Positions 1-13,763 of a DNA stretch of 64,000 nucleotides are shown here, in pieces. Within the stretch, counting starts at the first letter, position 1. Each line of letters opens with the position of its first letter. The notes below the pieces were generated by a model. That model was not told the origin of the DNA and did not search any database. It saw only the letters and a list, made by a program, of their open reading frames with translations. The DNA comes from Halovivax gelatinilyticus (GTDB lineage Archaea > Halobacteriota > Halobacteria > Halobacteriales > Natrialbaceae). The translations under genes were made by a program, and so were the position numbers. The DNA is taken from contig NZ_CP101322.1 of assembly GCF_024300625.1 (NCBI RefSeq), positions 75,992 to 139,991 on the forward strand. The letters are read 5' to 3'.

Positions 1-34
1 TCTTCACCGTTCAATAACCTATCCCCCTCACTCG

Positions 35-1180
35 TCACGGGTAGAGACGAGGCAGAGTGAACTTGTGGAACTCGACAAGGTCGTCGGCGACCTGCTCGGC
101 CAAGCGGTGATCGGCAAGGCGTTCGGGGTCGTACTCCGCCGCGATTTGGACTCGGTCAAAATCACCAAGTGCATCCGCTCCTTTCAGAACGGTGGTCATC
201 TCTGACGGTTCGTCCACCCGATCGATGACGTTGAAATTCCAATCCGTGCATAGCAACGCCCACTCGTGTTCGGTCAGGAACTCAACGATCTCGTCGGCGC
301 ACTCGATAAGCATCTCACGTGATGCTTCGCTTTGCTTTGGGCTTACAGAGTAGCCGACACGCATGGCGGGCGTCCGGCGGCCTTCGACGCAGAAGGCAAC
401 GAACAGGTAGTGCTGGTTTTTGTTGTTGATCGCGAACTCCGGCTTGCCGTAGGCGATCCACAGATGGGTAGGGACGAATTTCATCTCGCCTGGAAACCGG
501 TTGAAGTCCTGGGAGATGCCGTCACGCCACATGTTTTTCGCCTGAAGACCGCTTTCGCTGAGGCGTCCTTCGACGTCGCGGTGAAACCGCGCGATGTACC
601 TGTGATACTGCTTCGAGAGTTCCCAGACGGTGGGTAAATCGTCGAGCAATTGGTCCGGAAAGCCGGTGAACGGCACGTAGCCTTCCTCTTCGAGCTTCGA
701 TCGTAGCAGGTCTAGAAGTCCCTGCTGGGATTTCGAAAGTTTCGAGCGATCACATCGGGAGATACCGATCGCTATCTCTCTCCACCCCAGCCATTCTGCG
801 TGTTCGAGGTCGAGATCATCGAGCGAGGCGGGTTGTGAGTCGTGACCTGAGACGAGAAACAGGTGTTTCTGGGCTCGTCCGAATCGTTGCAGGTCGTCGT
901 GTTCCTCTTGTAGTTGCTCGGGGTCGAACTCCGTGCCGAGTTTCGCCTCGATCATGACGGTCGTCCGGTCATCCTCGATGGTTACGTCTGGGATTCGTGT
1001 CGCGCGCGGATCGATACGGTCGTGAAACTCGATTCGCACGTCGTCGGAGAACGCGTCGTCAGGTAATTCGAGTACCTCTGCCAGCACCGGCGGCCCGATG
1101 AGTTCGAGGATTCCAAAAACGATCCGTGTCAGGTCGTCCTCGCTCTCGACGTCTAAGTATCGTGCGAGCGTTGTTGACAT
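35..1180 (-). CDS. PD-(D/E)XK nuclease-like protein
   Basis: Predicted 381-aa soluble protein. Near the N-terminus it has a spaced acidic motif typical of the PD-(D/E)XK fold: IPD (D65), then a short hairpin leading to IEAK (E78, K80). This suggests a metal-dependent nuclease or a catalytically related defence or repair protein. The C-terminal two thirds, with several Trp and aromatic positions, match nothing I recognise. An in-frame ATG lies 15 nt upstream, but a TATA-like box at 1201-1210 is 25-28 nt from the ATG chosen here, which fits a leaderless mRNA. The gene stands alone on the minus strand, next to an 89-aa hypothetical gene. The nuclease call rests on the motif and its predicted strand context only. 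Confidence 0.7.
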   Translation of the reverse strand: MSTTLARYLDVESEDDLTRIVFGILELIGPPVLAEVLELPDDAFSDDVRIEFHDRIDPRATRIPDVTIEDDRTTVMIEAKLGTEFDPEQLQEEHDDLQRFGRAQKHLFLVSGHDSQPASLDDLDLEHAEWLGWREIAIGISRCDRSKLSKSQQGLLDLLRSKLEEEGYVPFTGFPDQLLDDLPTVWELSKQYHRYIARFHRDVEGRLSESGLQAKNMWRDGISQDFNRFPGEMKFVPTHLWIAYGKPEFAINNKNQHYLFVAFCVEGRRTPAMRVGYSVSPKQSEASREMLIECADEIVEFLTEHEWALLCTDWNFNVIDRVDEPSEMTTVLKGADALGDFDRVQIAAEYDPERLADHRLAEQVADDLVEFHKFTLPRLYP

Positions 1181-1200
1181 GCGATTCACTACCATTCCGA

Positions 1201-1210
1201 GCTATATTAG
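1201..1210 (-). promoter_or_regulatory. TATA box of the PD-(D/E)XK-like gene
   Basis: Read on the minus strand this is CTAATATAGC, about 26 nt before the ATG at 1180. That is the usual haloarchaeal TATA spacing for a leaderless transcript, and it decides between the two possible start codons. Confidence 0.5.
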
Positions 1211-1289
1211 CGCCTGAGACGACTCTCGGCATTCGTGAACAACGGTCGTCTGGTTCCCGCTCGGACTGCACAACTGGAACGAACTCGTC

Positions 1290-1559
1290 TTAATGCTGGT
1301 ACGGACACACCTCGTATCCCTCCCGCTGAAGCTTCTCTTCGGCACTCGTGATGCCGAACTCCGTCTCGATCCGGTCGCCCTCGTAGGGAACGTCCGCCGT
1401 GGCAAACAACTCGAACTCACCGTCTGTCGTCTCTCGGAAATAGTACAGCCAGTGACGACCGGTTGCGTCCCACGTATCCACGCGAACAGTCGACTGATCG
1501 TCCTCGGTCTCGAGTTCGCACACATCGTATCCCATAATCATCTCGAGCTGGTCATACAT
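1290..1559 (-). CDS. hypothetical 89-aa protein
   Basis: Small acidic protein with alternating aromatic and hydrophobic residues (HWLYYF, FELFATADV) that suggest a beta-rich domain, ending in CPYQH. No family recognised. An internal Met (MGYDV, residue 9) is an alternative start. It reads toward the nuclease-like gene with about 100 nt between them, so the two might be co-transcribed. Acidic composition and codon use are haloarchaeal, which supports a real gene. Confidence 0.5.
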   Translation of the reverse strand: MYDQLEMIMGYDVCELETEDDQSTVRVDTWDATGRHWLYYFRETTDGEFELFATADVPYEGDRIETEFGITSAEEKLQREGYEVCPYQH

Positions 1560-1704
1560 TCATAACGTTTCTCGCCGTCAACTCTTCGGACGTTCCGGAC
1601 ACGACGAGCGCTTCAACTGTGGGTAAGAATTTGGAACGGATAAGGAGATCCGCTTAATAAATCCTTCTTGAGACTTCGAAGCGGTTCAGATTGTGCGGAC
1701 AGAA

Positions 1705-1711
1705 TTATATC
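1705..1711 (+). promoter_or_regulatory. TATA box of xseA
   Basis: TTATATC lies 26-31 nt upstream of the ATG at 1736 and supports that ATG over an upstream TTG at 1691. Confidence 0.5.
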
Positions 1712-1735
1712 CTGTGTCGAGAATGCAAACCAGTG

Positions 1736-2971
1736 ATGGCGGGCACCGACGAGGGATCGACGACGGTCGAAACGGCTGAGCTTGCGTCTTCGGCGTGGTC
1801 GGTTTCCCGGTTGAACGGCGAGATCGAGGCGGTCCTGGATCGCGCCGGCGATCGATTTCCGACCTACGTGGTCGGTGAAATCGCGGAGGTGAATCGCTAC
1901 GACTTCGGGACGTTCTTCGAGCTTCGTGATCTTGAGGACGAAGCTGTGATCTCCTGTCTGGCCTGGAGCTTTGCGGTTGACGGGTTCGACCGTGAACTCG
2001 AAAATGGTACTGAGGCGATTGTGCGCGCATCAGTTGACTTCTACCCCGAACGCGGCGACACGCAACTGGTCGTCAGCGACTACTGGCCGGTCGGCGATTC
2101 CGACCGGTCGCGTGAGCTTGCCGAGCTTCGATCGGCGCTCGAAGCGGAAGGGTTGCTCGACGAGTTACAAAAACAATCCCTCCCGGAGTATCCCGACTGC
2201 ATCGGCGTCGTCACCTCGCTCTCGGGGTCCGCTCGCGAGGACTTTGTTAGCGCCGTTCGATCCAGGTGGGCACACACGTCGATCAGGCTTTGCGGCGCGA
2301 CCGTGCAGGGTGAGAACGCGGTCCCCTCGCTGGTCGGGGCGATCCAGACACTCGAGTGGGACGCGTACGTTGACGTGATCGTCGTCACTCGCGGAGGTGG
2401 CTCCGATACCGATCTCTGGTGTTTCAACGAGGAGGCGGTCGTCAGGTCGATCGCCGACTGCCTGACGCCGGTCGTCGTCGCCGTCGGTCACGAAGACGAC
2501 GAGACGCTGGCCGAGGCGGTCGCCGACCGCCGTGCGATGACACCCACCGACGCCGGGGTCACGACGACACCGAACGGGGCAGCCCTCAACGAATCGATTG
2601 GGCAACTTGAACGGTACATCGACGTCACGTACGACGGCCTGGTCGACGATCGATTGGGCACGTTAGAACGGCGTATCGAAAATGCGTTCAAGACGGTCAA
2701 GCACGAGGCGAAAACCGAGGCTGTGACGGCTCGAGCGGCCCGGGGTCGCGTCGGCGACCTTGAGGCGCGAATCGACCGGGCGTACGACCGACGCGTCGAG
2801 CGAGAACTCGAGACCCTCGACACGCGAATCGACACCGCGTACCGGGATCTGGAAACGGACGCACGGGTTGCGGCTGGCACCGCCGAAGCCCGGCGACTCC
2901 GAATCGTCGTCGCCGCGTTAGTTGCGCTTCTACTCATCGGAACGGCGCTCGTCCTCTTGTTGCTTCTGTAG
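1736..2971 (+). CDS. xseA: exodeoxyribonuclease VII large subunit, with C-terminal membrane segment
   Basis: Catalytic subunit of exonuclease VII, which degrades single-stranded DNA into oligonucleotides in repair and recombination. The 411-aa protein begins with an OB-fold (VGEIAEVNRY, FFELRDLEDEAVISC) and continues with the XseA core: GVVTSLSGSAREDF, VVTRGGGSDTDLWCFN, VAVGHEDDETLAEAVAD. A charged, coiled-coil-like region follows. The unusual feature is the last ~24 residues, a strongly hydrophobic stretch (VVAALVALLLIGTALVLLLLL) that looks like a membrane anchor, which bacterial XseA lacks. The predicted small subunit xseB follows after 75 nt. The start is set by the TATA box at 1705. Confidence 0.9.
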   Translation: MAGTDEGSTTVETAELASSAWSVSRLNGEIEAVLDRAGDRFPTYVVGEIAEVNRYDFGTFFELRDLEDEAVISCLAWSFAVDGFDRELENGTEAIVRASVDFYPERGDTQLVVSDYWPVGDSDRSRELAELRSALEAEGLLDELQKQSLPEYPDCIGVVTSLSGSAREDFVSAVRSRWAHTSIRLCGATVQGENAVPSLVGAIQTLEWDAYVDVIVVTRGGGSDTDLWCFNEEAVVRSIADCLTPVVVAVGHEDDETLAEAVADRRAMTPTDAGVTTTPNGAALNESIGQLERYIDVTYDGLVDDRLGTLERRIENAFKTVKHEAKTEAVTARAARGRVGDLEARIDRAYDRRVERELETLDTRIDTAYRDLETDARVAAGTAEARRLRIVVAALVALLLIGTALVLLLLL

Positions 2972-3046
2972 AGAGTAATGGAGGATCGGGTGGAGCGTAG
3001 GTTGCACGTCCTGTAGATTCATGGTGACCGGCACACATCGTGACGT

Positions 3047-3259
3047 ATGACCCCTGACGTTGATATCAAAGGCAGGATCGAGCGTCTGGAGGAGATTGCT
3101 GAGACGCTCGAGGACGGTGAGATTGGATTAGATTCCGCGAAGGAACTCCGTGTAGAGGCCGATGATCACCTTGAAGCGCTGCGCGACGCGCTTGACGCAG
3201 GTGATGGTGACATCATCGAGATCGACAGCAGCGACGCCGACGTAGATGACTGGGAATGA
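3047..3259 (+). CDS. xseB: exodeoxyribonuclease VII small subunit
   Basis: 70-aa acidic, helical protein. It has the short two-helix pattern of XseB (IERLEEIAETLEDGEIGLD followed by a second helix) that packs against the XseA coiled coil. The length fits the family (60-85 aa), and the position directly after xseA confirms the assignment. The C-terminus is a run of acidic residues typical of halophiles. Confidence 0.85.
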   Translation: MTPDVDIKGRIERLEEIAETLEDGEIGLDSAKELRVEADDHLEALRDALDAGDGDIIEIDSSDADVDDWE

Positions 3260-3586
3260 CTGGAATGGGTACCCCCTTCGTCCGTGAGGGTATTTGATCA
3301 ATAGTTTCTGGTGGAATTGCATGGTGGACGGATTCACCTGAAGGTTCGGCGATCGTAGAACCCTTTTGCAGGCTGCTGACTCGAAATATGCGAGGTGGAA
3401 TCAGCTTCAGGGTGGGTTTTGATGCGAGAAAGAGGTGGTGGGGGAATAGTCGCGTCGTGCTGCTTCGGTGTTGCTTGTACGTGATTCGCTCGTGACGGTT
3501 GGTGGATTGATTATGGCGAGGGTAGAGCTTGATCTCAGGGCAGAGGTTTTTAAGTAACCCTTTCATTTACTGTTTGCTGTTTAACA
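3260..3586. other. intergenic stretch without a gene
   Basis: AT-richer than its neighbours, with no convincing coding frame on either strand. The right end carries a TATA-like TTTTTAAG at about 3547-3554, roughly 35 nt before the ATG of the next gene, so it holds at least that promoter. Confidence 0.6.
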
Positions 3587-4114
3587 ATGGAGCAAAAATC
3601 CACAAATGACACAGCAGCACAGAGCGGTTCAAACAAGCCAGCAGAAAATATTGCGTTCCGCATCGATAACCGTCGTCGTGAAGGCGAAAGTCGTGAGGAC
3701 GTCATTAATCGATGTCTCGATGAAACTGTTGAATCAGTCACTCTCGAAGAGGTCACCGCTGCAATCGAAGAAGAGTTTGACGAAATCTCTTGTGTACGGT
3801 TCGCTGCGCACGTGCCTATCGATGAAACGGGGTTGGTGATCTTCACCGTCCATACCCCCGAAGCGTTCGACTTCGATGAGCGTGAATTCGCTTTCGGGAC
3901 CGATCGGTATCGACTCGTCTTCCCGGACATAGATGGGTTAGATCGTGAGTACGAGTTTGGGGTCGAGGCGTCCGAATTTTCGCCGGGAGACGAGCGGTTG
4001 TCCGACTACACGCATGTGTACCGAGCGGACCACTTCGAGTCGTTGGCGCCACTGACGTTCGCCGAAGGGCTCGAAAGTCTGCGTACCCGATTCCGCGACG
4101 AGCTCAACGCGTAA
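3587..4114 (+). CDS. hypothetical 175-aa protein
   Basis: Soluble acidic protein with no recognised family. The Ser/Asn/Gln-rich first ~20 residues look disordered. A charged helical part follows (RREGESREDVINRCLDE, which resembles the helix of small CopG- or antitoxin-like haloarchaeal proteins), then a beta-rich C-terminal half (FDFDEREFAFGTDRYRLVFP). It has its own TATA-like box about 35 nt upstream and stands alone between intergenic regions. The lower GC at its 5' end suggests it belongs to the accessory part of the window. Confidence 0.6.
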   Translation: MEQKSTNDTAAQSGSNKPAENIAFRIDNRRREGESREDVINRCLDETVESVTLEEVTAAIEEEFDEISCVRFAAHVPIDETGLVIFTVHTPEAFDFDEREFAFGTDRYRLVFPDIDGLDREYEFGVEASEFSPGDERLSDYTHVYRADHFESLAPLTFAEGLESLRTRFRDELNA

Positions 4115-4190
4115 GCGGAATCCGCCGACTCTTTTTTCACCAACCGAGAAGGTCGCTCGCACGGGGTGTTTGGATAAGTGACAAGTACAG

Positions 4191-4224
4191 GGTCGTGGTG
4201 GATTCCGACGGGTTCACCACGACC
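4191..4224. promoter_or_regulatory. 10-bp perfect inverted repeat before the Tat-protein gene
   Basis: GGTCGTGGTG (4191-4200) and CACCACGACC (4215-4224) form perfect 10-bp arms around a 14-nt loop, ending 9 nt before the ATG at 4234. It could be a 5'-leader hairpin that affects translation or an operator for a dimeric regulator. Confidence 0.55.
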
Positions 4225-4233
4225 TGAGAGACA

Positions 4234-5136
4234 ATGTATACGACCGGTGAATCGGATGTGAATCCGAAACGGCGCGCAATACTCGGTGCGGTGGGTGGTG
4301 TGGCTGGGCTGTCTGCACTCGCGGATCCTGCACTGGCACAGGATGAGAAATGTCCGGAGTGGGATCCATCTTACAGAGGACGGACCTGCACACTCACATG
4401 CAACGAACTTCCGGGAGAGCGTGGCGACGGCAAAAAGAAGCCATGGTACGAGTCGAAGCTCACCTTCCATAACTGTTCGACCTGTACTCGATTGATCGGT
4501 GCTCGGGTAACGGACGGGCACATTAGTGACAAGCGCGAGTCGGAACCGCACGTATCCGACCAGTCGAGTGTACTCTCGTACCATATCGAAGCAGGGGAGC
4601 GAAAGACGTTCTGGTACACGGGTAGCATCAATAATTTCGATCTTTCAGAACCGGCGGACATGAACGTCGCTATCACGCAGCGGTCGGTCGAACGCGCCCC
4701 GACCGAACAGTGTTACCGACCAGATCCCGATGCGAAACGGACGACCAAACGGGAGAAAACGTGCCCGGAAGGTGATCCGGAAGCAGGTGGGCGGACGTGT
4801 TCGCTCAAGTGTGGTGAACTCTCACCAGAGTTCCATGAGGGGAAGAAGAAACCGTGGTACGAATCGGCGATCACGTTCCAGAACTGTTCGAGTTGTACTC
4901 GCAAGATAGCGGTCGGTGTCAGCGACGGGTCTATTCACGAAGATAAATCGGTCGAGCCGGACGCCGGCCATCATGCAGGGAGTGTTAGCTATCACCTGAA
5001 GGAAAACGAACGGAAGACGTTCTGGTTTACCGGCAGCGTTGGCTTCCTCGATCTCTCCGAACACGCGGACATGAACGTCGCGATCAGCCAGCGATCGATC
5101 GAATACGCACAATCTTCACGTTGCTACCGGCCCTAA
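4234..5136 (+). CDS. secreted protein with two copies of one Cys-rich domain
   Basis: 300-aa exported protein. The N-terminus resembles a Tat signal: RR at residues 13-14, a hydrophobic stretch GAVGGVAGLSAL, and a likely cut after ALA at 35. The mature part is an internal tandem duplication, roughly residues 40-160 and 176-300. Both halves share the order CPE-x-DP, GRTC-x-L-x-C, KKPWYES, TF-x-NCS-x-CTR, SYH, RKTFW-x-TGS, ADMNVAI-x-QRS and a final CYRP. Each repeat has about six Cys, so disulfides or metal binding are likely. Family and function are not recognised. A perfect inverted repeat precedes the start, and the 42-bp repeat array begins just downstream. Confidence 0.75.
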   Translation: MYTTGESDVNPKRRAILGAVGGVAGLSALADPALAQDEKCPEWDPSYRGRTCTLTCNELPGERGDGKKKPWYESKLTFHNCSTCTRLIGARVTDGHISDKRESEPHVSDQSSVLSYHIEAGERKTFWYTGSINNFDLSEPADMNVAITQRSVERAPTEQCYRPDPDAKRTTKREKTCPEGDPEAGGRTCSLKCGELSPEFHEGKKKPWYESAITFQNCSSCTRKIAVGVSDGSIHEDKSVEPDAGHHAGSVSYHLKENERKTFWFTGSVGFLDLSEHADMNVAISQRSIEYAQSSRCYRP

Positions 5137-5201
5137 GAATAGAGAAATACTCTCAGCAACACCATTTCAACCTGCTTGAACAGCGTTCACGACAATCCAC
5201 C

Positions 5202-5453
5202 TTCAACCGTGAAACTCTGCGCTTCACACGAAATACACCCACCTTCAACCGTGAAACTCTGCGTTTCACACGGAATACCCCCTTCTTCAACCGTGAAACT
5301 CTGCGTTTCACACGGAATACCCCCTTCTTCAACCGTGAAACACTGCGTTTCACACGAAATACCCTCTTCTTCAACCGTGAAACACTGCGTTTCACACGAA
5401 ATGCTCCCTCCTTCAACGGTGGAACTCTGTGCTTCACGCGGAATACCGTGATT
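5202..5453. repeat. array of six 42-bp tandem repeats, each with a 7-bp-arm palindrome
   Basis: Units start at 5202, 5244, 5286, 5328, 5370 and 5412, a period of exactly 42 bp. A worn seventh copy lies just upstream near 5165. Each unit contains GTGAAAC-NCTGC-GTTTCAC, a dyad with 7-bp arms and a 5-nt centre. The four central units have perfect arms, while the first and last have mismatches. The 42-bp period equals four turns of B-DNA, so all dyads face the same side of the helix. This suits iterated protein binding sites (transposase, partition or replication-type iterons) or a set of hairpins. No unique spacers are present, so it is not a CRISPR array. Confidence 0.9.
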
Positions 5454-5799
5454 CAATGGACAAGTATCTAACTCGCCCCCCTCCCAAGTTTTGAGGAATT
5501 GATGCTATAATTCACATTCTTATAGAGAAGGTTTCTAAAGGGTGAATTTTGTAGAAGAGAGATTTCAATTTGGGTCAGTTACTGTCCAATTGCGTTACTC
5601 GATCACGCAAGTTACGCTGGGTTGTGAACGTCAAAACCAGCCGAGGGCAGTGAGGTTTTACGTGACGTTTCGTAACTAGAAGGGTCGAGGTGTTCGAGAT
5701 GCATATCCTGTGTGGAATTGAGGGTTGAATCTTCATTGCGTTTTATTTTATCAATTGGGCAAACGCTTTTCCTTGGCGAACCGGCCAATTTCAATTGCA
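5454..5799. other. AT-rich leader region of the transposase gene
   Basis: No credible gene. It contains an AATTCAC / GTGAATT inverted repeat (5509-5515 and 5542-5548) that echoes the GTGAA arm of the array, and an imperfect inverted repeat (5627-5638 with 5654-5669; 7+5 bp). An AT-rich box TTTTATTTTA near 5742-5751 lies about 50 nt before the transposase ATG and may be its TATA element. Confidence 0.5.
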
Positions 5800-7605
5800 A
5801 TGGCAGAAAAATCACCAGAGAAACCTACTGTCGTACATGCAGACCTGGCAGCGAAAGATCTCGGGGTCCCAGTGTACTACAGTGCAACCCTCGATGTTAG
5901 TGAGGGTAACACAGATACCGGGACAAATATCGAAGAACGGGGTGCTGACGTTACGGTCTCCCATCCAGTTGCTGATCCCGCGGAATTACGACGCAGAGCC
6001 CACATCACTGCACAACTTGCCATTTACAACCGCGACCTTTGGGACGTCGAGAGAAGTCCGGAAGCGTTCGATACAGCAGTAATCGATGTCGCTGAGAGGG
6101 TATTCGAGGCGTTCGAGATCGACGTTGGAACGTTACCAATCGAACGCCCATACACGTACGCGATCCTGGTTCACGACGTCTGGAAAATCGACTCGATGCC
6201 AGGACTCCGTCAATACCTGCAGGACCATCCATCTACCGCAAACCGGATTGGCCTAGCAGAGGTGCCGAGTACCGCATCGTTCTATCGACGCCGGAACCTC
6301 CTTCGAGAGGCTCGGTTGCGATCAGTTTTCGCTGCGGTAAGTGAGTGTATCGTTCACGCGATTTGGCGATCAGGCCATCCGCTCCCCGAAGAAATAATTG
6401 ACCGATGGGAACTCGACACTACACCGGTCGTCACGGAGTTTGATATCTCTCCAGAGACACGCGATGAAGCGCTGCGAAACTGGGCGCGAGAACTTCTTGC
6501 AGACGCGAGTACTGCTCTCTCATTTAATCGAGATTCATCTCGTGTCTCGTATTCGATCGAGCAGTACATCGGTTTGCTCGCACACAGCACATTACAACAA
6601 GTCGGTCTCACGCGAGCACAGAATACCGCGGGTTGGGTATTCGGCGACGCAGTCGTTCCAGGTGGTGATGGTCTACTCAAGCACATCACCGCCTTAGATC
6701 TGGACAAGATTGAATCGCAGTTTGCGACCGCTCACAGCCAGGTGTTTGATCGATTCGCCGCCCGCGGCCTATTTGACGATCCGATCGATCTCGCGTTCGA
6801 CACGACCGAAATCATTTGGTGGGGAGATGAGATGGATGCGACAATTGGCAAACGACGGCCGGAAAAAGACGCGACACCCAAATGGGTGTTCGCGCTCCTC
6901 GTCGGATTCAACTCCGATGTCAGGGTGAATTTCGGAGCAGTGCACGTGAGAAGCAAAGATCGACACGCGAGCGTCCTCGAAGAGTTGCTCTCGACTGCCA
7001 CCGCGAACGCTGAACCCAGGTACGCATTCTGTGACAAAGAGTTCTACGACGGCTCAGTGATTGAAGCGCTGCGGACAGGCCTTGGGAAACAGTGGGTGAT
7101 TAAAGCTCAAAATTACGATTCGATCGAGGATTTCATTAAGAAAACTCCATCAGATGAACCCGGGTTCATAAAAGAAATTGAAGCAACGAGCGCAAAACCC
7201 CGACCTAACGCGTTCGCCATCCCAAAAAAGCTGCACAGGCAACAAACGCTCATCAACTTCAGGACTACTGACCAAGTGCTCGATCCTGATGGGAGTGCAA
7301 GCACTCATACTGTCTATCTCACCGATATGGATGACGTAGAGACGACACCAGAGGTTATCAAATTCCGGTACGACTACCGATGGAACGTTGAAACAGCCAA
7401 CCGTCAGTTTAAACGGGTACTCCCTAACACAGCCAGCCAGAACGTGCGAGCCCGGATTTACTGTGCCAATATTGCGACACTGTTCATTAACTGGCACAGC
7501 CTGATCAACCGCACGCTCTCACCAACGTACAATCTTCCCCTCACCGTTACACGGAACGAGTTACTCACCGCGATCCGTGACGTGGCGTTTACAGAGACGG
7601 AGTAA
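5800..7605 (+). CDS. IS4-type DDE transposase, large form
   Basis: 601-aa protein with an RNase H-like DDE catalytic domain in its second half. The triad is readable: D334 (FDTTEI), D412 (FCDKEF) and E531 in YDYRWNVETANRQFK, which matches the IS4 signature Y-(2)-R-(3)-E-(6)-K exactly. The first ~300 residues form a helical DNA-binding-like region and make the protein longer than typical haloarchaeal IS4 transposases. All catalytic residues are present and the frame is uninterrupted, so it may be active. ATG 5800 is chosen because the upstream extension is not acidic and overlaps promoter-like sequence. A PCNA-like clamp gene starts 2 nt after its stop, implying one transcript. No clear terminal inverted repeats were found, so it may be a domesticated or non-standard transposase. 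Confidence 0.9.
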   Translation: MAEKSPEKPTVVHADLAAKDLGVPVYYSATLDVSEGNTDTGTNIEERGADVTVSHPVADPAELRRRAHITAQLAIYNRDLWDVERSPEAFDTAVIDVAERVFEAFEIDVGTLPIERPYTYAILVHDVWKIDSMPGLRQYLQDHPSTANRIGLAEVPSTASFYRRRNLLREARLRSVFAAVSECIVHAIWRSGHPLPEEIIDRWELDTTPVVTEFDISPETRDEALRNWARELLADASTALSFNRDSSRVSYSIEQYIGLLAHSTLQQVGLTRAQNTAGWVFGDAVVPGGDGLLKHITALDLDKIESQFATAHSQVFDRFAARGLFDDPIDLAFDTTEIIWWGDEMDATIGKRRPEKDATPKWVFALLVGFNSDVRVNFGAVHVRSKDRHASVLEELLSTATANAEPRYAFCDKEFYDGSVIEALRTGLGKQWVIKAQNYDSIEDFIKKTPSDEPGFIKEIEATSAKPRPNAFAIPKKLHRQQTLINFRTTDQVLDPDGSASTHTVYLTDMDDVETTPEVIKFRYDYRWNVETANRQFKRVLPNTASQNVRARIYCANIATLFINWHSLINRTLSPTYNLPLTVTRNELLTAIRDVAFTETE

Positions 7606-7607
7606 CC

Positions 7608-8354
7608 ATGGAGGGGACGATAGCTGCCAGCGGGCTTCGCGACGTGATTGCTCCTGCCACCGCGCTCGTTAATGAAGCGGTGTTAACTGCGAGTTACGAG
7701 GAGATGCAGCTCCAGGCTCTCAGCGCCGATAAGAACGCTGTCGTGACCACAACGGTAGCAATTGACGAATTTGATGCGTACTCCGCAGAAACGTCCGCTA
7801 TAGGCGTGCGTGTAGACGCGTTGGATGCGTATCTCAAGTTGGTTGACCCGGCCAGCCCTGTCCAGATACGGACGCCCCCGCACAGTGACTCCATCAGGGT
7901 GATCGCCCCGGATTTAGTGGTCAATAGCGACGGAATAGATGGTAAGAATATTCGGCAACAAACGGGTTGGACTGATCGACAGGACTCGTTTAGATTCAGT
8001 TGCCGGAGTAACGCTAGATCGCTACGTCGGAGCCTCGAAGCGGCTGACCTTTGTGGGCCGTCAATTACGATCAACGCCGATCGTGATGATTCGGTAGAGT
8101 TTACCGCAACTGGGGAAGCAGACGATATGCGATGCCGAGTGACCGGCGACGTAATCACTGAGCATCCAGAACCACCGGTGAAGCCAACATATCCGGTCGA
8201 GAAGCTCCGGGAAATGCATCAGAGCCTCTATACGCGTACTGATTTTCTGACCTTCGAGGTGAACATCGAGGGAGTCCTTACAATGTCTGGCAAGCACGTC
8301 GAAACGTCAGCGATTACTCGATTTGCACTGGCACCCCTATCATCGGATTCGTAG
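7608..8354 (+). CDS. divergent PCNA-like DNA sliding clamp
   Basis: 248 aa, the length of haloarchaeal PCNA. It aligns by eye along its whole length with PCNA: N-terminal LRDVIAPATALVNEAVL, IDEFDAYSAE, the domain crossover near KNIRQQTGW (compare DSIRQEP in cellular PCNA), SLEAADLCGPSITI, VEFTATGEADD, KLREMHQSL and C-terminal TRFALAPL. PCNA is a ring-shaped trimer that tethers polymerases, ligase and nucleases to DNA. Here the gene is translationally coupled to a transposase rather than placed with replication genes. It is clearly diverged from the housekeeping clamp, so it is either a mobile-element paralogue or a virus-derived copy. Haloarchaeal tailed viruses are known to carry PCNA genes. 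Whether it forms rings or joins host PCNA is unknown. Confidence 0.85.
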   Translation: MEGTIAASGLRDVIAPATALVNEAVLTASYEEMQLQALSADKNAVVTTTVAIDEFDAYSAETSAIGVRVDALDAYLKLVDPASPVQIRTPPHSDSIRVIAPDLVVNSDGIDGKNIRQQTGWTDRQDSFRFSCRSNARSLRRSLEAADLCGPSITINADRDDSVEFTATGEADDMRCRVTGDVITEHPEPPVKPTYPVEKLREMHQSLYTRTDFLTFEVNIEGVLTMSGKHVETSAITRFALAPLSSDS

Positions 8355-8402
8355 TCAGAGCGCGAGTGAGAAAGAACGAGCGTCAGTGATGGTTCGTCGG
8401 GG

Positions 8403-8813
8403 TTAGTAGAACGTAGTGTCGCCACCGGGAACATCGGCGTGAGCGGTAATTTCGGCCGCGTCGAAAGGTTGCTCGATACCGTTGATCTTGCGACGATGGA
8501 GTTCGATATCGTCGAAATTCTCGTCGGTAGGGTGGATTTGAAAGTACGCGGCTAAATCGTCGATGATTTGTCGGTGATGGTCGGGGATCGCGGACTTGTT
8601 CACGGTGAATACGAGTTCGGTGCTGGTCGTTGGGACTGGCTTGATCACCCCTACCGTTTCGCCTTCCGTCAGTCGGCGGTCGAGTGTTCGTTCTGGCACA
8701 TCGATCATCGTGATGAGTTGTTGCCGGGTGCGTGATGATTCGAGGAGTGCTGTACATAGTTCGTAGCCGCCGGCGTGGGTGAGAAAGGTACTTACACGAT
8801 CAGTTCCTGACAT
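8403..8813 (-). CDS. small HTH-type regulator facing the transposase-clamp operon
   Basis: 136-aa protein with a winged-helix-like N-terminal half: LCTALLESSRTRQQL, then IDVPERTLDRRLTEGETVG as recognition helix and turn, and a wing with VFTVNKSAI. The C-terminal half is acidic and unrecognised. It is convergent with the clamp gene (48 nt between stops) and divergent from the tyrosine recombinase. A TATA element (minus strand TTTATAC, 8839-8845) is 26 nt from the ATG, giving a leaderless transcript. It could repress the recombinase or the transposase operon; this is inferred from position. Confidence 0.6.
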   Translation of the reverse strand: MSGTDRVSTFLTHAGGYELCTALLESSRTRQQLITMIDVPERTLDRRLTEGETVGVIKPVPTTSTELVFTVNKSAIPDHHRQIIDDLAAYFQIHPTDENFDDIELHRRKINGIEQPFDAAEITAHADVPGGDTTFY

Positions 8814-8838
8814 TCTAAATTGTGAATAAGCTGGATAC

Positions 8839-8883
8839 GTATAAACCCTCGGCGTGAGAGAGCGTCAAAACCCGAGTTTATAC
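8839..8883. promoter_or_regulatory. divergent promoters with mirror-image TATA elements
   Basis: GTATAAA (8839-8845, serving the minus-strand regulator) and TTTATAC (8877-8883, serving the plus-strand recombinase) lie within an imperfect inverted repeat TATAAACCCTCGG / CCCGAGTTTATA. One dimeric regulator could control both directions. The plus-strand box predicts a start near 8905 and a ~50-nt leader before ATG 8955. Confidence 0.5.
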
Positions 8884-8954
8884 TTAATCCTTTGGGTCTG
8901 TCTACCTCTCGTCATCTGTTCTCGAATTTATTTACCCCGTCCCTGGACAATCAT

Positions 8955-10121
8955 ATGAGTAGTTCCGGCAAGAGTGAAGAAATCGAGGAATCACCCTCGA
9001 AACGGATTTTGCAGTCCATGTTTCAAGATGTTCTGGGACACCGACGAGCGGTTCACTTCTTCAAAGAGTTAGATGAGTGCTACGAGTGGATGGTGACGCG
9101 AGGGATCGAACCGAACGCACGGAACCCCACTGGGTACGAAGAGAGCAGCGCGGAGAATTACCTCAAACGACTCGGCAAAGCACTGCCACACCTCTGGCTA
9201 CGACACGGCGGCTTTACCCTAGAGATCACGAACGACTTGGCCACCTGGTACGTCGAACAGCTCGAAGACGACGAACTCACGACAGAAAACGGGTCGCCGT
9301 ACGCCGCCTCGACGAAACGCAAACACGTGTGCGCCGTATTCGCGATGAAACGCTGGCGCGCTGATCAACGCGGCGACCAGCCCTGGCGGCCACACACGCT
9401 GTTCGAAGCGGAACAACCGGAACGACCAATGGCCGACCCCATCACGCTCGAAGAACGCTCCGTGCTCCGCGAGCACGTCCTCGAATACAACACCATCACT
9501 CGATACAACAACTGTACACCAGAACAACGCGATCGGATTCGAGCGGAACTCGCGCAGCGACTCGGAAAGCCGAAAGCCGACGTCACGAAAGACGATTGGG
9601 AACGAGTGAACACGTGCTGGAAATACCCGAGCTTAATCTACCTGTCTCTCGACACTGGGCTTCGACCGATCGAAGTCGCGACCGCAAAGGTCGAGTGGGT
9701 GAACCTCTCGAAGGAGACACTCGAAGTTCCGAAATCGGATTCGGTGAAAAACGATGCGAGGTGGGAGAATCCGATTACGTCGCGAACCGCCGATACGTTA
9801 GAACGGTGGTTCCGGCAGCGAGCGGCCGAACCCGCGTACGATGACACCGACCTCATCTGGCTGACGCGCGAGGGTAATCCGTACTCGTCCGGCCCGCTCG
9901 GCCGAAACCTGCGAAAACTCTTGGAAGACGCAGGCGTCGATATCAGTGACCGGAACATATCGTGGTACTCACTGAGGCACTCGCTCGGAACGCATTACGC
10001 GAGAGTCGCGGACAACATCGACGACGTTCGTCGCCAACTGCGACACAAAACGATCGAGGCTACCCTTCGCTACATCCACCCGCCGGACGAGGACGTCCGC
10101 GATAACCTGAACCGGATCTAA
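8955..10121 (+). CDS. tyrosine recombinase / integrase (copy 1)
   Basis: 388-aa site-specific recombinase. It has a SAM-like core-binding N-terminal domain (about residues 20-150) and a catalytic domain with R237 (TGLRPIE), R341 in WYSLRHS, H364 in QLRHK and the nucleophile Y373 (TLRYIHP). The usual first His of HxxR is Tyr here, as in its partner. The frame is intact and the catalytic set looks complete. It shares YNN, RPIE, LTREGNPY, WYxxRHS and LRHK blocks with the second recombinase at 12.4-13.5 kb, so the two are paralogues. ATG 8955 is preferred over an upstream in-frame TTG at 8892, given the TATA position. Confidence 0.9.
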   Translation: MSSSGKSEEIEESPSKRILQSMFQDVLGHRRAVHFFKELDECYEWMVTRGIEPNARNPTGYEESSAENYLKRLGKALPHLWLRHGGFTLEITNDLATWYVEQLEDDELTTENGSPYAASTKRKHVCAVFAMKRWRADQRGDQPWRPHTLFEAEQPERPMADPITLEERSVLREHVLEYNTITRYNNCTPEQRDRIRAELAQRLGKPKADVTKDDWERVNTCWKYPSLIYLSLDTGLRPIEVATAKVEWVNLSKETLEVPKSDSVKNDARWENPITSRTADTLERWFRQRAAEPAYDDTDLIWLTREGNPYSSGPLGRNLRKLLEDAGVDISDRNISWYSLRHSLGTHYARVADNIDDVRRQLRHKTIEATLRYIHPPDEDVRDNLNRI

Positions 10122-10361
10122 CCAGGCAACTGTTTTCCTTTTTCGACTACGTGCGACTGGGCTCGACGCGAGTCGAACGGTTCGAGGGGTGACGACGATC
10201 GGAGTTCCTGCCACCGATACTTGTTGCGGAGAGAATACTCCTCGGTGTACTCGGAGTGAGTTACTGGGACTGGTTCTTGCTGTGTTGATGAGCGCGACCG
10301 GTTTGTGCCCGTTTTGGTCTGAACGAGTTCGATGAGCCCCGGAATTGATCCTGCGAGTCGA

Positions 10362-10380
10362 AGTTGCCTCAGAGGCAACT
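10362..10380. promoter_or_regulatory. 19-bp perfect palindrome
   Basis: AGTTGCCTC-A-GAGGCAACT: two 9-bp arms around one central base, in non-coding DNA 240 nt after the recombinase stop. It is compatible with an operator, a recombinase core site or a terminator stem. No T-run follows, which weakens the terminator reading. Confidence 0.55.
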
Positions 10381-10843
10381 ATCCGGGTTTTTATAAGGTT
10401 GAATCGCCTTTCTCGACCTGAGCGGGCCGAAATCGGGCCAAACGGCGCGACAAACGGGCCGGATGCTGCCAACGAATCCTTCCAATCCGGATGGACTCTC
10501 ACTCCAACGGGGATGGTTGGACTACTCAATTGCTGCTTCCACCTGGTTAATTACCAGAAACTACAGGGCACGTAAAACAGGCTTACAGCTAATCCTGCTT
10601 CGATAAATTATTCTCTTGAATACACACCCCAGGCTTGGAGATCGAAGGTTGCACGTGGCGAGCGCCAACGTTCTTATCAGCCTTTACAGATGCTTATCGC
10701 ACCGTGTTGAATCCAGCGCGTAACTGTGAAACGGACTAAGGCGGGACTTGCAAGGTTCGCAATAGATCAGTACTAAGACATATTGAACGCAAGTGGTTTC
10801 TAGACTGTGTGGCTCAGAACTTAAGTGGCCGGCTCAGCCAACG

Positions 10844-10880
10844 CATTGGTTAGACATATAAGCCCGAACGTTAACCAATG
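10844..10880 (+). promoter_or_regulatory. toxin-antitoxin promoter with flanking operator arms
   Basis: Perfect 9-bp inverted arms, CATTGGTTA (10844-10852) and TAACCAATG (10872-10880), enclose a TATA box TATAAG at 10857-10862. The ATG follows at 10885, 28 nt from the TATA. The layout suits autorepression by the HTH antitoxin encoded immediately downstream. Confidence 0.6.
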
Positions 10881-10884
10881 TATT

Positions 10885-11493
10885 ATGGCGATATTGGAGC
10901 AGCCTGACCGGGAACGCGGATTCAACAAGGATCGGATCATCCGGGTCCTGTTGAATCACACGGGAGATGAATTGACGAAGTACCGGTTAGCACAGCTTTC
11001 TGGTGCGTCTGAACCGTGGACGCGCCAGTACACTGAATCACTCGAAGAAAAGGGTTTAGTCGAGGGTACTGAGGTCAAGGCACCAGTGGGACTGTACCGG
11101 ACCTGGTTGGACCAGCGGATCGAGCCGAATCAATTGGAGGTGTCCCTCCAGTACCCGATGGACCGGCTAGCAGAGACTGACTTGCAGTACGCGCTAACGA
11201 CATACCAAGCAGAGAATCTGAATCAGGGCTTTCTCTTCACCTCGACCACTGACTTCTACATTTCTCCGGAGGAAATCAACGACTGGCTTGCAATCGTCGA
11301 GGAGAACGGATTGCTAGGCGGTGGAAATACTCGAATCAGAGTCCTTGACGACCACGTCTTCTACAATCAGCAGGCAGTCGATGGCTTCTCGACTGTGTCT
11401 ATCCCGCAACTAATTCTGGATTTGCTTGCGGAGGGCGGACCGTGTGAGCAAGCGGCGAAGAAACTCATCGATTCGTATCATGGTGACCAATAG
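10885..11493 (+). CDS. HTH antitoxin-like partner of a nucleotidyltransferase (AbiEi-like)
   Basis: 202-aa protein with an N-terminal winged-helix region: DELTKYRLAQLSGAS, then WTRQYTESLEEKGLVEG. A mixed alpha/beta C-terminal part follows, as in AbiEi or antitoxin proteins that bind their own promoter. The downstream nucleotidyltransferase start overlaps this stop by one base, so they are coupled. ATG 10885 is chosen over an in-frame GTG at 10825 because the TATA box at 10857 lies between them. The antitoxin role is inferred from HTH, coupling and operator, not from a recognised family signature. Confidence 0.65.
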   Translation: MAILEQPDRERGFNKDRIIRVLLNHTGDELTKYRLAQLSGASEPWTRQYTESLEEKGLVEGTEVKAPVGLYRTWLDQRIEPNQLEVSLQYPMDRLAETDLQYALTTYQAENLNQGFLFTSTTDFYISPEEINDWLAIVEENGLLGGGNTRIRVLDDHVFYNQQAVDGFSTVSIPQLILDLLAEGGPCEQAAKKLIDSYHGDQ

Positions 11494-12308
11494 TGGTGAG
11501 ACAATACTACGTGCCGCAGATCACGGAACTCTCCGAACAAGAACTCCAGGCAGTGTTTGAAGCAGCCCAACCCCCGGTATGTCTGCTCGGCGGGTGGGCT
11601 GTCCATCTTCACGTAACCCCCGGATTCCACTCAGCGCACGGCCGCGAGTACATCGGATCACGAGACATCGATCTCGGCGTCCACGTCGATGCAAGTTGGA
11701 GTGGGGAGGACTTCCAGGAAACACCGGTTGAAGACTCGATCTCAGCAATCGAAGAGTTAGGGTATACGAAGAGTCGCTTCGGCTTCGTTCAGAACTTCCT
11801 CCGCGACAGCCAAGAACGAATCAGCGAAGCCGAAGCCAGCGAACACAGCTTGCACGAGGTGTTTCAAGTCTACGTCGATGTTATCCCTGACACTACGGAG
11901 CTAGACAAATTCCGAGACGTGTTCGGGTTCAAACCGCCAGCGGAACCACTCCTGGCACCGGTGTTCGAAACGAACAGCGGTGAGCAGTTAGCGGAGTATG
12001 TGTCATGGTCGCCGCCTGCGAACAAACTGATTGCCCCGCCAGAATTACTGGCTGCGATGAAAATCCGGTCGCTCCCGGATCGAGACAAGAGTCACAAACG
12101 AGTGAAGGATGTCGCTGACCTCCATGCGCTCCTCTGGTACGTCACAGACTACACGGACGTGAAAACCGGCGCACTGGAACACGTCTCACACTCCGACTTA
12201 ACGCAATTTGCGGACGCAGTTGACGACCCAGTATTCGAAGACGCAGCTACGCTCCTCCAGATTGAACCACAACTCATCAGCGGATCCATTACCCGGTTAC
12301 TTCGGTAA
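11493..12308 (+). CDS. nucleotidyltransferase toxin-like protein (AbiEii/MNT type)
   Basis: 271-aa protein with a DNA polymerase beta-like nucleotidyltransferase core: the GGW motif (residues 33-35, LLGGWAVHLH), the metal-binding pair D58-x-D60 in SRDIDLGV, and a third Asp about D129 in VYVDVIPD. Conserved helical residues follow (PPELLAAMKIRSLP, KRVKDVADLHALL), typical of AbiEii and related enzymes that modify tRNA or protein. Such enzymes act as toxins or phage-abortive factors with an HTH partner. The start GTG overlaps the upstream stop; a second GTG follows directly. Confidence 0.75.
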   Translation: MVRQYYVPQITELSEQELQAVFEAAQPPVCLLGGWAVHLHVTPGFHSAHGREYIGSRDIDLGVHVDASWSGEDFQETPVEDSISAIEELGYTKSRFGFVQNFLRDSQERISEAEASEHSLHEVFQVYVDVIPDTTELDKFRDVFGFKPPAEPLLAPVFETNSGEQLAEYVSWSPPANKLIAPPELLAAMKIRSLPDRDKSHKRVKDVADLHALLWYVTDYTDVKTGALEHVSHSDLTQFADAVDDPVFEDAATLLQIEPQLISGSITRLLR

Positions 12309-12416
12309 CCCAGTCACACCGGAGACCACACAACTGTCCCCGCGAGATGAATCACCGGCTCACTATACCATCGTACTCGCCAGCTGTGAGGCCGCCCAAG
12401 CGTGTCGACGGGCCCG

Positions 12417-13520
12417 TCACCCGATACGATCTAACGCTTTTTTGCGGTCCTCGAGGGGGGTTTGATCATATTTAAGGGTGGATTTTGGGCTTTTGTGCCG
12501 GAGTTGGGTCTGGGCCGCTGCGAGGTCTTCTTCGCGCGTCATGTACGTACCGGTGGAGTGCCGGATGACGTACCAACTGCATTTCCGGTTTTCGTGATCG
12601 ATGCCGGCGATCTCGAACAGTTGGTGAAGGATTCGTCTGAGCGAGGCTGACCCGTACGGATTTCCTTCGCGCGTTAACCACAGCTCGTCGCGCCCGTCGT
12701 ACAGGTCGTACGTCGCGCGCTGGTCGAGCCACCGGTCGAGCATGTCGATCGTTCGCGTGCTGAGGCTGACGTGCCAGTTGTCTTCGTTTTTCGAGCTGTC
12801 CTCGATCGGGATTCGCAAGATCCCGTTATCGATATCGACCCAGGACGTGACCGCTCGTTCGACCTCGATCGGTCGTAAGGCCGCGTCGAGGCTGACGCTT
12901 ACGAGACTCGGGATCTTCCAACTGTTCGCACGCTCCCACTCTCGTTCGGTGATTTCCTCGACCGGTTTCTCGAATCGCTGGGCGAGATACGCGTTGATCT
13001 CGCGTCGTTCGGTCGGCGAGACGTTGTTGTACGAGGGGATGGAGCCGTACTCCAGCGCTGCTTCGCGGATCAGTTTCCGTTCATCGAGCGTCAGGTAGTC
13101 TCGCGGGGCCGTGGTGCCGTCGTTTGAGCTGAACGTGATCGTTGGCTCCCACTCTTCGCCGCCGCGTTCGTACGCACGCCATTTGAACAGCATCCGGACG
13201 GCTTTCTGACACAGGTCGCGGTGAGTGTCGCTGCACTCGGCGTGGGCCAGTTCCTGCATCCAGGCATCGGCGTGGTCGTGAGTCACGGCCGTGGTGTACT
13301 GGCCTTCCTGGTCCCAGACGAACCGGAGGAATTGATCCATTCGGTAGATCCGGTTTTTGACCGTGCTTTCGGCGTACCCGTTTGCTTTTTCGGGTTCGAT
13401 GCCGAACGCGAGCAGCCACTTGACCATGGCTTCTCGCTCGGTTCGGTAATCGACGAGTTGTCGTTCGCCGAGTCGGTCTTCGGTCGGTCCTGGAACGAGC
13501 GCGTACTCGCTTAGATCCAT
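12417..13520 (-). CDS. tyrosine recombinase / integrase (copy 2), next to tRNA-Glu
   Basis: 367-aa recombinase with catalytic residues R216 (AALRPIE), R320 (WYVIRHS), H342 (QLRHK) and Y351 (STLKYDQ), so it looks complete. The 5' end lies about 170 nt from the 3' end of tRNA-Glu, the standard placement for an integrase that uses the tRNA 3' end as attachment site. It is paralogous to the recombinase at 8.96-10.1 kb and points back toward it. ATG 13520 is chosen because the in-frame upstream extension is rich in Arg and Cys and not halophile-like. Confidence 0.9.
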   Translation of the reverse strand: MDLSEYALVPGPTEDRLGERQLVDYRTEREAMVKWLLAFGIEPEKANGYAESTVKNRIYRMDQFLRFVWDQEGQYTTAVTHDHADAWMQELAHAECSDTHRDLCQKAVRMLFKWRAYERGGEEWEPTITFSSNDGTTAPRDYLTLDERKLIREAALEYGSIPSYNNVSPTERREINAYLAQRFEKPVEEITEREWERANSWKIPSLVSVSLDAALRPIEVERAVTSWVDIDNGILRIPIEDSSKNEDNWHVSLSTRTIDMLDRWLDQRATYDLYDGRDELWLTREGNPYGSASLRRILHQLFEIAGIDHENRKCSWYVIRHSTGTYMTREEDLAAAQTQLRHKSPKSTLKYDQTPLEDRKKALDRIG

Positions 13521-13688
13521 TCCGACCACCCTCGAAGGAATCCTGCGAATCGGATTGCAGGGCAAATAGTCGGAATCGCTGTACGGCGTCGGGGTAACCC
13601 GGTCCTCTGAATCGCATTGCCGTTCGAATTCATGTTTACGTGAGGTAAGCACGGGCTAAGAAATCGGGAGACGGCGACGGGAAAAGGA

Positions 13689-13763
13689 TGCTCCGACTGG
13701 GATTCGAACCCAGGTCATTGCCGTGAGAGGGCAATATGATTGGCCGGACTACACCATCGGAGC
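13689..13763 (-). tRNA. tRNA-Glu (CTC)
   Basis: 75-nt cloverleaf. The acceptor stem is GCTCCGA/TCGGAGC with discriminator A, the D-arm is GGTGTAGTCCGG, the anticodon stem TTGCC/GGCAA closes loop CTCTCAC with anticodon CTC, and the T-arm contains GGTTCGAATCC. No CCA is encoded. Its 3' end faces an integrase gene, so it is a probable attachment site. Confidence 0.97.

Follow-up and report, generated by a model that had tools for sequence, protein, structure and literature searches.

A DDE transposase-like gene followed directly by a gene for its own PCNA-type sliding clamp was found at 16 distinct loci in haloarchaea, one of which lies in the window, the 64,000-nt stretch of the Halovivax gelatinilyticus genome analysed here. 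With moderate confidence, we read the two genes as a module in which a transposase-like recombinase or nuclease would be tethered by its own clamp, and which travels as cargo on integrative islands instead of forming a stand-alone insertion sequence, being either domesticated or a low-copy element. The pair and its surroundings in the window are as follows.

5800..7605, + strand: DDE (ISH3/IS4-like) transposase, 601 aa from ATG (open reading frame, Pfam and NCBIfam matches)
7240..7260, + strand: PIP-box-like motif QQTLINF, transposase residues 481-487, in a variable linker (Fisher p 0.016; such motifs show no enrichment specific to the paired proteins)
7608..8354, + strand: dedicated PCNA-like sliding clamp, 248 aa (PCNA models, AlphaFold model)
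8955..10121, + strand: tyrosine recombinase INT1, island member beside the pair (context; joint action with the pair is not implied)
10825..12308, + strand: wHTH protein and AbiEii-like nucleotidyltransferase, toxin-antitoxin-like cargo (context)
12417..13652, - strand: tyrosine recombinase INT2 beside tRNA-Glu (context)
13689..13763, - strand: tRNA-Glu (CTC), where the low-GC island ends; presumed attachment site in the chromosome (context)

The two genes and their products

An earlier note on this DNA had described an intact IS4-type DDE transposase. The reading frame is intact, and it carries the D-D-E triad (D334, D412, E531) and the Y(2)R(3)E(6)K signature (Y524-R527-E531-K538) of the DDE/IS4 superfamily. 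Across 11 aligned paired transposases, D334, D412, E531 and R527 are invariant, with Y524 and K538 nearly so. Pfam DDE_Tnp_1 matches above its cut-off at 27 bits. Among NCBIfam models, ISH3 comes closest (52 bits, cut-off 225), with IS4 second (28 bits, cut-off 115); because both matches fall below their cut-offs, no family model is passed and the label "IS4-type" is valid at the superfamily level only. The protein also has an extra N-terminal region of ~230 aa. An AlphaFold model of the transposase (three sequences) reached a pLDDT of 51 and was unusable.

The same note's divergent, full-length PCNA homologue 2 nt downstream was borne out in each respect. The junction reads TAA, CC, ATG. The NCBIfam PCNA model spans clamp residues 4-243 with E 1e-18, a match that stays under its cut-off, and Pfam PCNA_N matches above cut-off. 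A profile built from four paired clamps found Haloferax volcanii PCNA as its best solved structure (E 2e-31). In its AlphaFold model (pLDDT 82.6, pTM 0.82), the window clamp has a complete two-domain PCNA fold and aligns with H. volcanii PCNA (3IFV) at Z 28.2 over 236 residues. Two elements of the PIP pocket, IDxxxIRQ and the C-terminal LAP, are kept in this clamp. They are gone from most other subgroups, and the C-terminal pocket and interdomain loop are eroded in paired clamps outside the window's subgroup, so the partner surfaces of the paired clamps have probably diverged among subgroups.

The transposase linker that precedes E531 contains the sequence QQTLINF, which hints at direct contact with the clamp. 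QQTLxxF is kept in the two closest paired transposases, and the linker is otherwise hardly alignable. PIP-like motifs occur 13 times against 7.2 expected in paired transposases and 22 times against 13 in unpaired relatives; with equal over-representation in the two sets, the motif is suggestive only, and PIP-box enrichment was rejected as a hallmark of the paired proteins.

Recurrence and co-divergence of the pair

A scoring profile was made from 11 paired transposases and used to ask how often the clamp is the next gene across haloarchaea. The clamp follows in 16/16 cases above 380 bits and in 0 of 40-odd relatives at or below 353 bits, a sharp split that is partly built in because the profile came from paired sequences; the tree, described below, gives an independent view. 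The pairing is far beyond chance, and it is not confined to this genome. Sampling was at the order, family and class levels (highest genome handle G457), and the loci belong to several families: G000 (the window), G016, G017, G058, G072, G137, G160, G183, G227, G278, G329 (Halomicroarcula sp. SYNS111), G370, G396 (Halorubrum alkaliphilum), G418, G451 and G457. Outside this genome, the best-matching haloarchaeal transposases share only ~30-50% identity with that of the window, with a clamp again the next gene, and paired transposases are ~590-660 aa long. The clamp starts anywhere from an overlap to ~100 bases downstream of the transposase. In seven loci the stop and start codons share one base (TAATG, TGATG, TAGTG), an overlap that points to translational coupling.

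Searching from the clamp side gave a PCNA match in 292 of 293 Halobacteriales genomes, nearly all of them ordinary host PCNA. Paired-type clamps of at least 235 bits numbered eight, and all eight adjoin a paired-type transposase; since the four most divergent paired clamps score under host PCNA in this search, the absence of orphan clamps holds for the well-scoring type only. Viral contigs scanned with three transposase profiles and the window clamp gave no relatives. A plasmid search with the window transposase returned distant transposases only (<28% identity among the matches listed), and the phylum-wide sample gave no strong match beyond the haloarchaea already found.

The two proteins diverge together. 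Pairwise distances of transposases and clamps are strongly correlated (Mantel r = 0.94, p = 1e-4), also within the largest clade alone (r = 0.81, exact p = 0.003), where clamps have diverged faster than transposases (mean identity 38% versus 58%). The transposase tree forms four groups, {G000, G418, G457}, {G137, G227}, a group of seven loci, and {G016, G329, G396, G072}. In the clamp tree the first three groups reappear, and G016 again joins G329; G396 and G072 sit on long branches of uncertain placement. Paired clamps fall on one side of a branch with support 98, and on the other are host PCNAs together with the clamp of the virus HRTV-DL1, which is placed among the host proteins. The clamp had been called the element's own, and this description fits a protein that is conserved, co-evolving, and separate from both host and virus PCNA. 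The paired state requires three changes on the transposase tree, with several open forks, and its patchy spread over families implies horizontal transfer.

Unpaired sister transposases (L003, L032, L049) have a 205-aa tyrosine recombinase where the paired ones have the clamp. A near-identical element (98% over 7.4 kb; L112, L113) with an unpaired sister transposase and a 205-aa tyrosine recombinase is present in two haloarchaeal families, and CRISPR-like repeat arrays lie nearby at L032.

Defence genes, transposon ends and tRNA-Glu islands

The first 89,700 nt of the contig (G000 C1:1-89,700, comprising L266-L269 and window positions 1-13,700) form a ~90-kb low-GC island, with the pair at its edge. 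This island carries DruE/BrxH-, Mokosh- and UvrD/GajB-like helicase genes, and its part upstream of the window is rich in such defence-type helicases. The neighbours of the pairs include AspBHI-type restriction enzymes along with AbiE-like and further defence genes. This setting, together with a fast-evolving clamp and a single gene copy, would suit a role in defence or inter-element conflict, in which the clamp would load the DDE enzyme as a nuclease on invading, replicating DNA that is then cut or inactivated. Such a role would make the domesticated form of the module specific, and we consider it possible but rather unlikely. PADLOC defence models match neither the transposase nor the clamp, the distinction of self from non-self is unexplained, and islands gather defence genes anyway. 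An ADP-ribosylglycohydrolase gene adjoins pairs of different clades at L031, L035 and L100, accompanied by a HEAT-repeat gene at L031 and L035.

The reading offered in the earlier note, a transposon that brings its own clamp, predicts an element moved by the DDE transposase, with the clamp directing insertion to replication forks or recruiting host polymerase or ligase for gap repair. The intact DDE and YREK residues of the aligned paired transposases and the horizontal transfer implied by their distribution are in its favour. Clamp use by other transposition proteins also speaks for it: IS1634/IS4/ISH3-group transposases bind clamps through a PIP-like motif, stronger binding raises transposition, and IS1634 peptides bind archaeal PCNA (PMC4549789), while TnsE targets Tn7 through the sliding clamp (PMC5371812). 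However, the paired-type transposase is present as one copy per genome in 16/16 cases, including the window's own. Inverted repeats were sought in 500-nt flanks, with a null maximum of 12 and four ISH3-family elements as positive controls. The controls scored 13-19 with clear ends, whereas no pair rose above the null: 14 of the 16 scored 8-10, and the remaining two reached 11 and 12. No end motif shared by groups of pairs was found, and the ISH3 controls again gave theirs. For asymmetric ends of the Tn7 kind, no inverted repeat convincingly exceeded the null within 6.5 kb on either side, a search that distant or diverged ends would escape; the positive controls cover the short-range end tests. 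Taken with the position of the pairs as island cargo at tRNA genes, these results leave a transposon in the usual sense unlikely.

Positions 5200-5447, immediately before the transposase gene, contain six tandem units of 42 nt whose core is palindromic (GTGAAACTCTGCGTTTCAC). They do not recur at other pair loci and so were not treated as transposon ends. The 300-aa protein encoded at 4234-5136 looks secreted and is internally duplicated, with a spacing of 411 nt.

The low-GC stretch that holds the window pair ends at the tRNA-Glu gene. About half of the mapped pairs lie in tRNA/integrase islands: 7 of 15 mapped loci, representing all four pair clades, have the pair within ~6 kb of an INT2/tRNA-Glu locus, with INT1-type as well as INT2 recombinases near this tRNA, whereas 0 of 13 random regions matched the INT1/INT2 recombinases. 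The gene order TNP-CLAMP-INT1-INT2 is seen in five loci, and two more pairs, from one genus, border a tRNA cluster. Being near a tRNA gene of any kind (10/15 pair loci versus 4/13 random regions) was not significant alone; the specific association is with tRNA-Glu/INT2 only. G329 retains a 39-nt 3' half of tRNA-Glu next to INT2, a pattern that an attachment site would be expected to show. In G029, which does not have the pair, a tRNA-Glu 3' repeat lies 5.4 kb away, and a search of the window's own genome with a 21-nt pattern did not find an att partner.

This recurrent arrangement, with INT1-type and INT2 genes, a repeated gene order and an att-like half tRNA, could indicate that the pair is an accessory factor of tRNA-Glu islands that aids their excision, replication or maintenance with INT1/INT2. 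We regard this as improbable. The tRNA-Glu (CTC)/INT2 integration hot spot (window 12417-13763; L176-L189) is common to many pair-free haloarchaea, where an INT1-type recombinase often faces INT2 as well, and eight mapped pairs are located elsewhere. Chance neighbours or a decaying viral remnant can be dismissed, as the great divergence of the clamp is all that speaks for such an origin, and it is contradicted by 16 intact, recurring pairs with co-divergence and gene overlap and by a virus clamp that sits with host PCNAs, apart from the paired clamps.

A proposed clamp-tethered DDE enzyme

The preferred reading remains a two-gene, clamp-tethered module carried by islands. Most likely the clamp would encircle DNA as a ring and tether the DDE enzyme to it, providing topological loading or selection of a substrate such as replicating or gapped DNA, which the enzyme may cleave. 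The module would be either domesticated, in which case conflict with viruses or other mobile elements is the most plausible purpose, or a low-copy element without ordinary terminal repeats. Several observations weigh against this reading. Contact and ring formation are putative, the C-terminal pocket and interdomain loop of the clamp are eroded outside the window's subgroup, and unpaired relatives show the same excess of PIP-like motifs. Tn7-like elements are likewise low in copy number, and far or highly diverged ends would be missed. For the conflict role, the enrichment of defence neighbours scored with PADLOC is modest to weak, and was counted per family, not per protein. A bolder form, which we put forward tentatively, is that the transposase-derived enzyme works only with its private clamp, as a clamp-loaded, processive or replication-sensing nuclease or integrase; archaeal islands would then carry a new class of module for DNA transactions or immunity.

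The module can be compared with several known systems. Tn7 has defined ends and the TnsABC machinery. With Tn7 TnsE and other clamp-guided systems the module would share low copy number and the coupling of a transposition protein to a processivity clamp (PMC5371812), but Tn7 relies on the beta clamp of its host, which it reaches by way of a separate targeting protein, and neither Tn7 ends nor TnsABC were seen here. The IS1634/IS4/ISH3 group offers a same-superfamily DDE transposase with a clamp-binding motif, a candidate one in our case (PMC4549789). In that group, however, the clamp is that of the host, while here a dedicated gene is fixed beside the transposase and IS-type ends were not found. 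ISH3 insertion sequences of haloarchaea have a homologous catalytic domain, as the NCBIfam match indicates, but the ISH3 controls have terminal inverted repeats and many copies, whereas the paired proteins have the long extra N-terminal region, a single copy and no such repeats. ORF41 of HRTV-DL1, a virus-encoded PCNA predicted to serve virus replication (PMC10544981), is likewise a PCNA on a mobile genome in haloarchaea, but it groups with host PCNA, unlike the transposase-tied clamps. Searches of the open-access literature returned clamp-binding transposases but no case in which a transposon or a transposase comes with a sliding clamp of its own, in agreement with the earlier note, which knew of no archaeal example.

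Transposases that dock on the host clamp were already known. A clamp gene of its own, fixed next to the transposase in four divergent clades, would show that clamp contact can turn into an obligate, private partnership. With only two proteins and culturable haloarchaeal hosts, the pair is a tractable system for asking how DDE enzymes are steered by clamps to replicating DNA, and whether transposase-clamp pairs have been recruited for defence.
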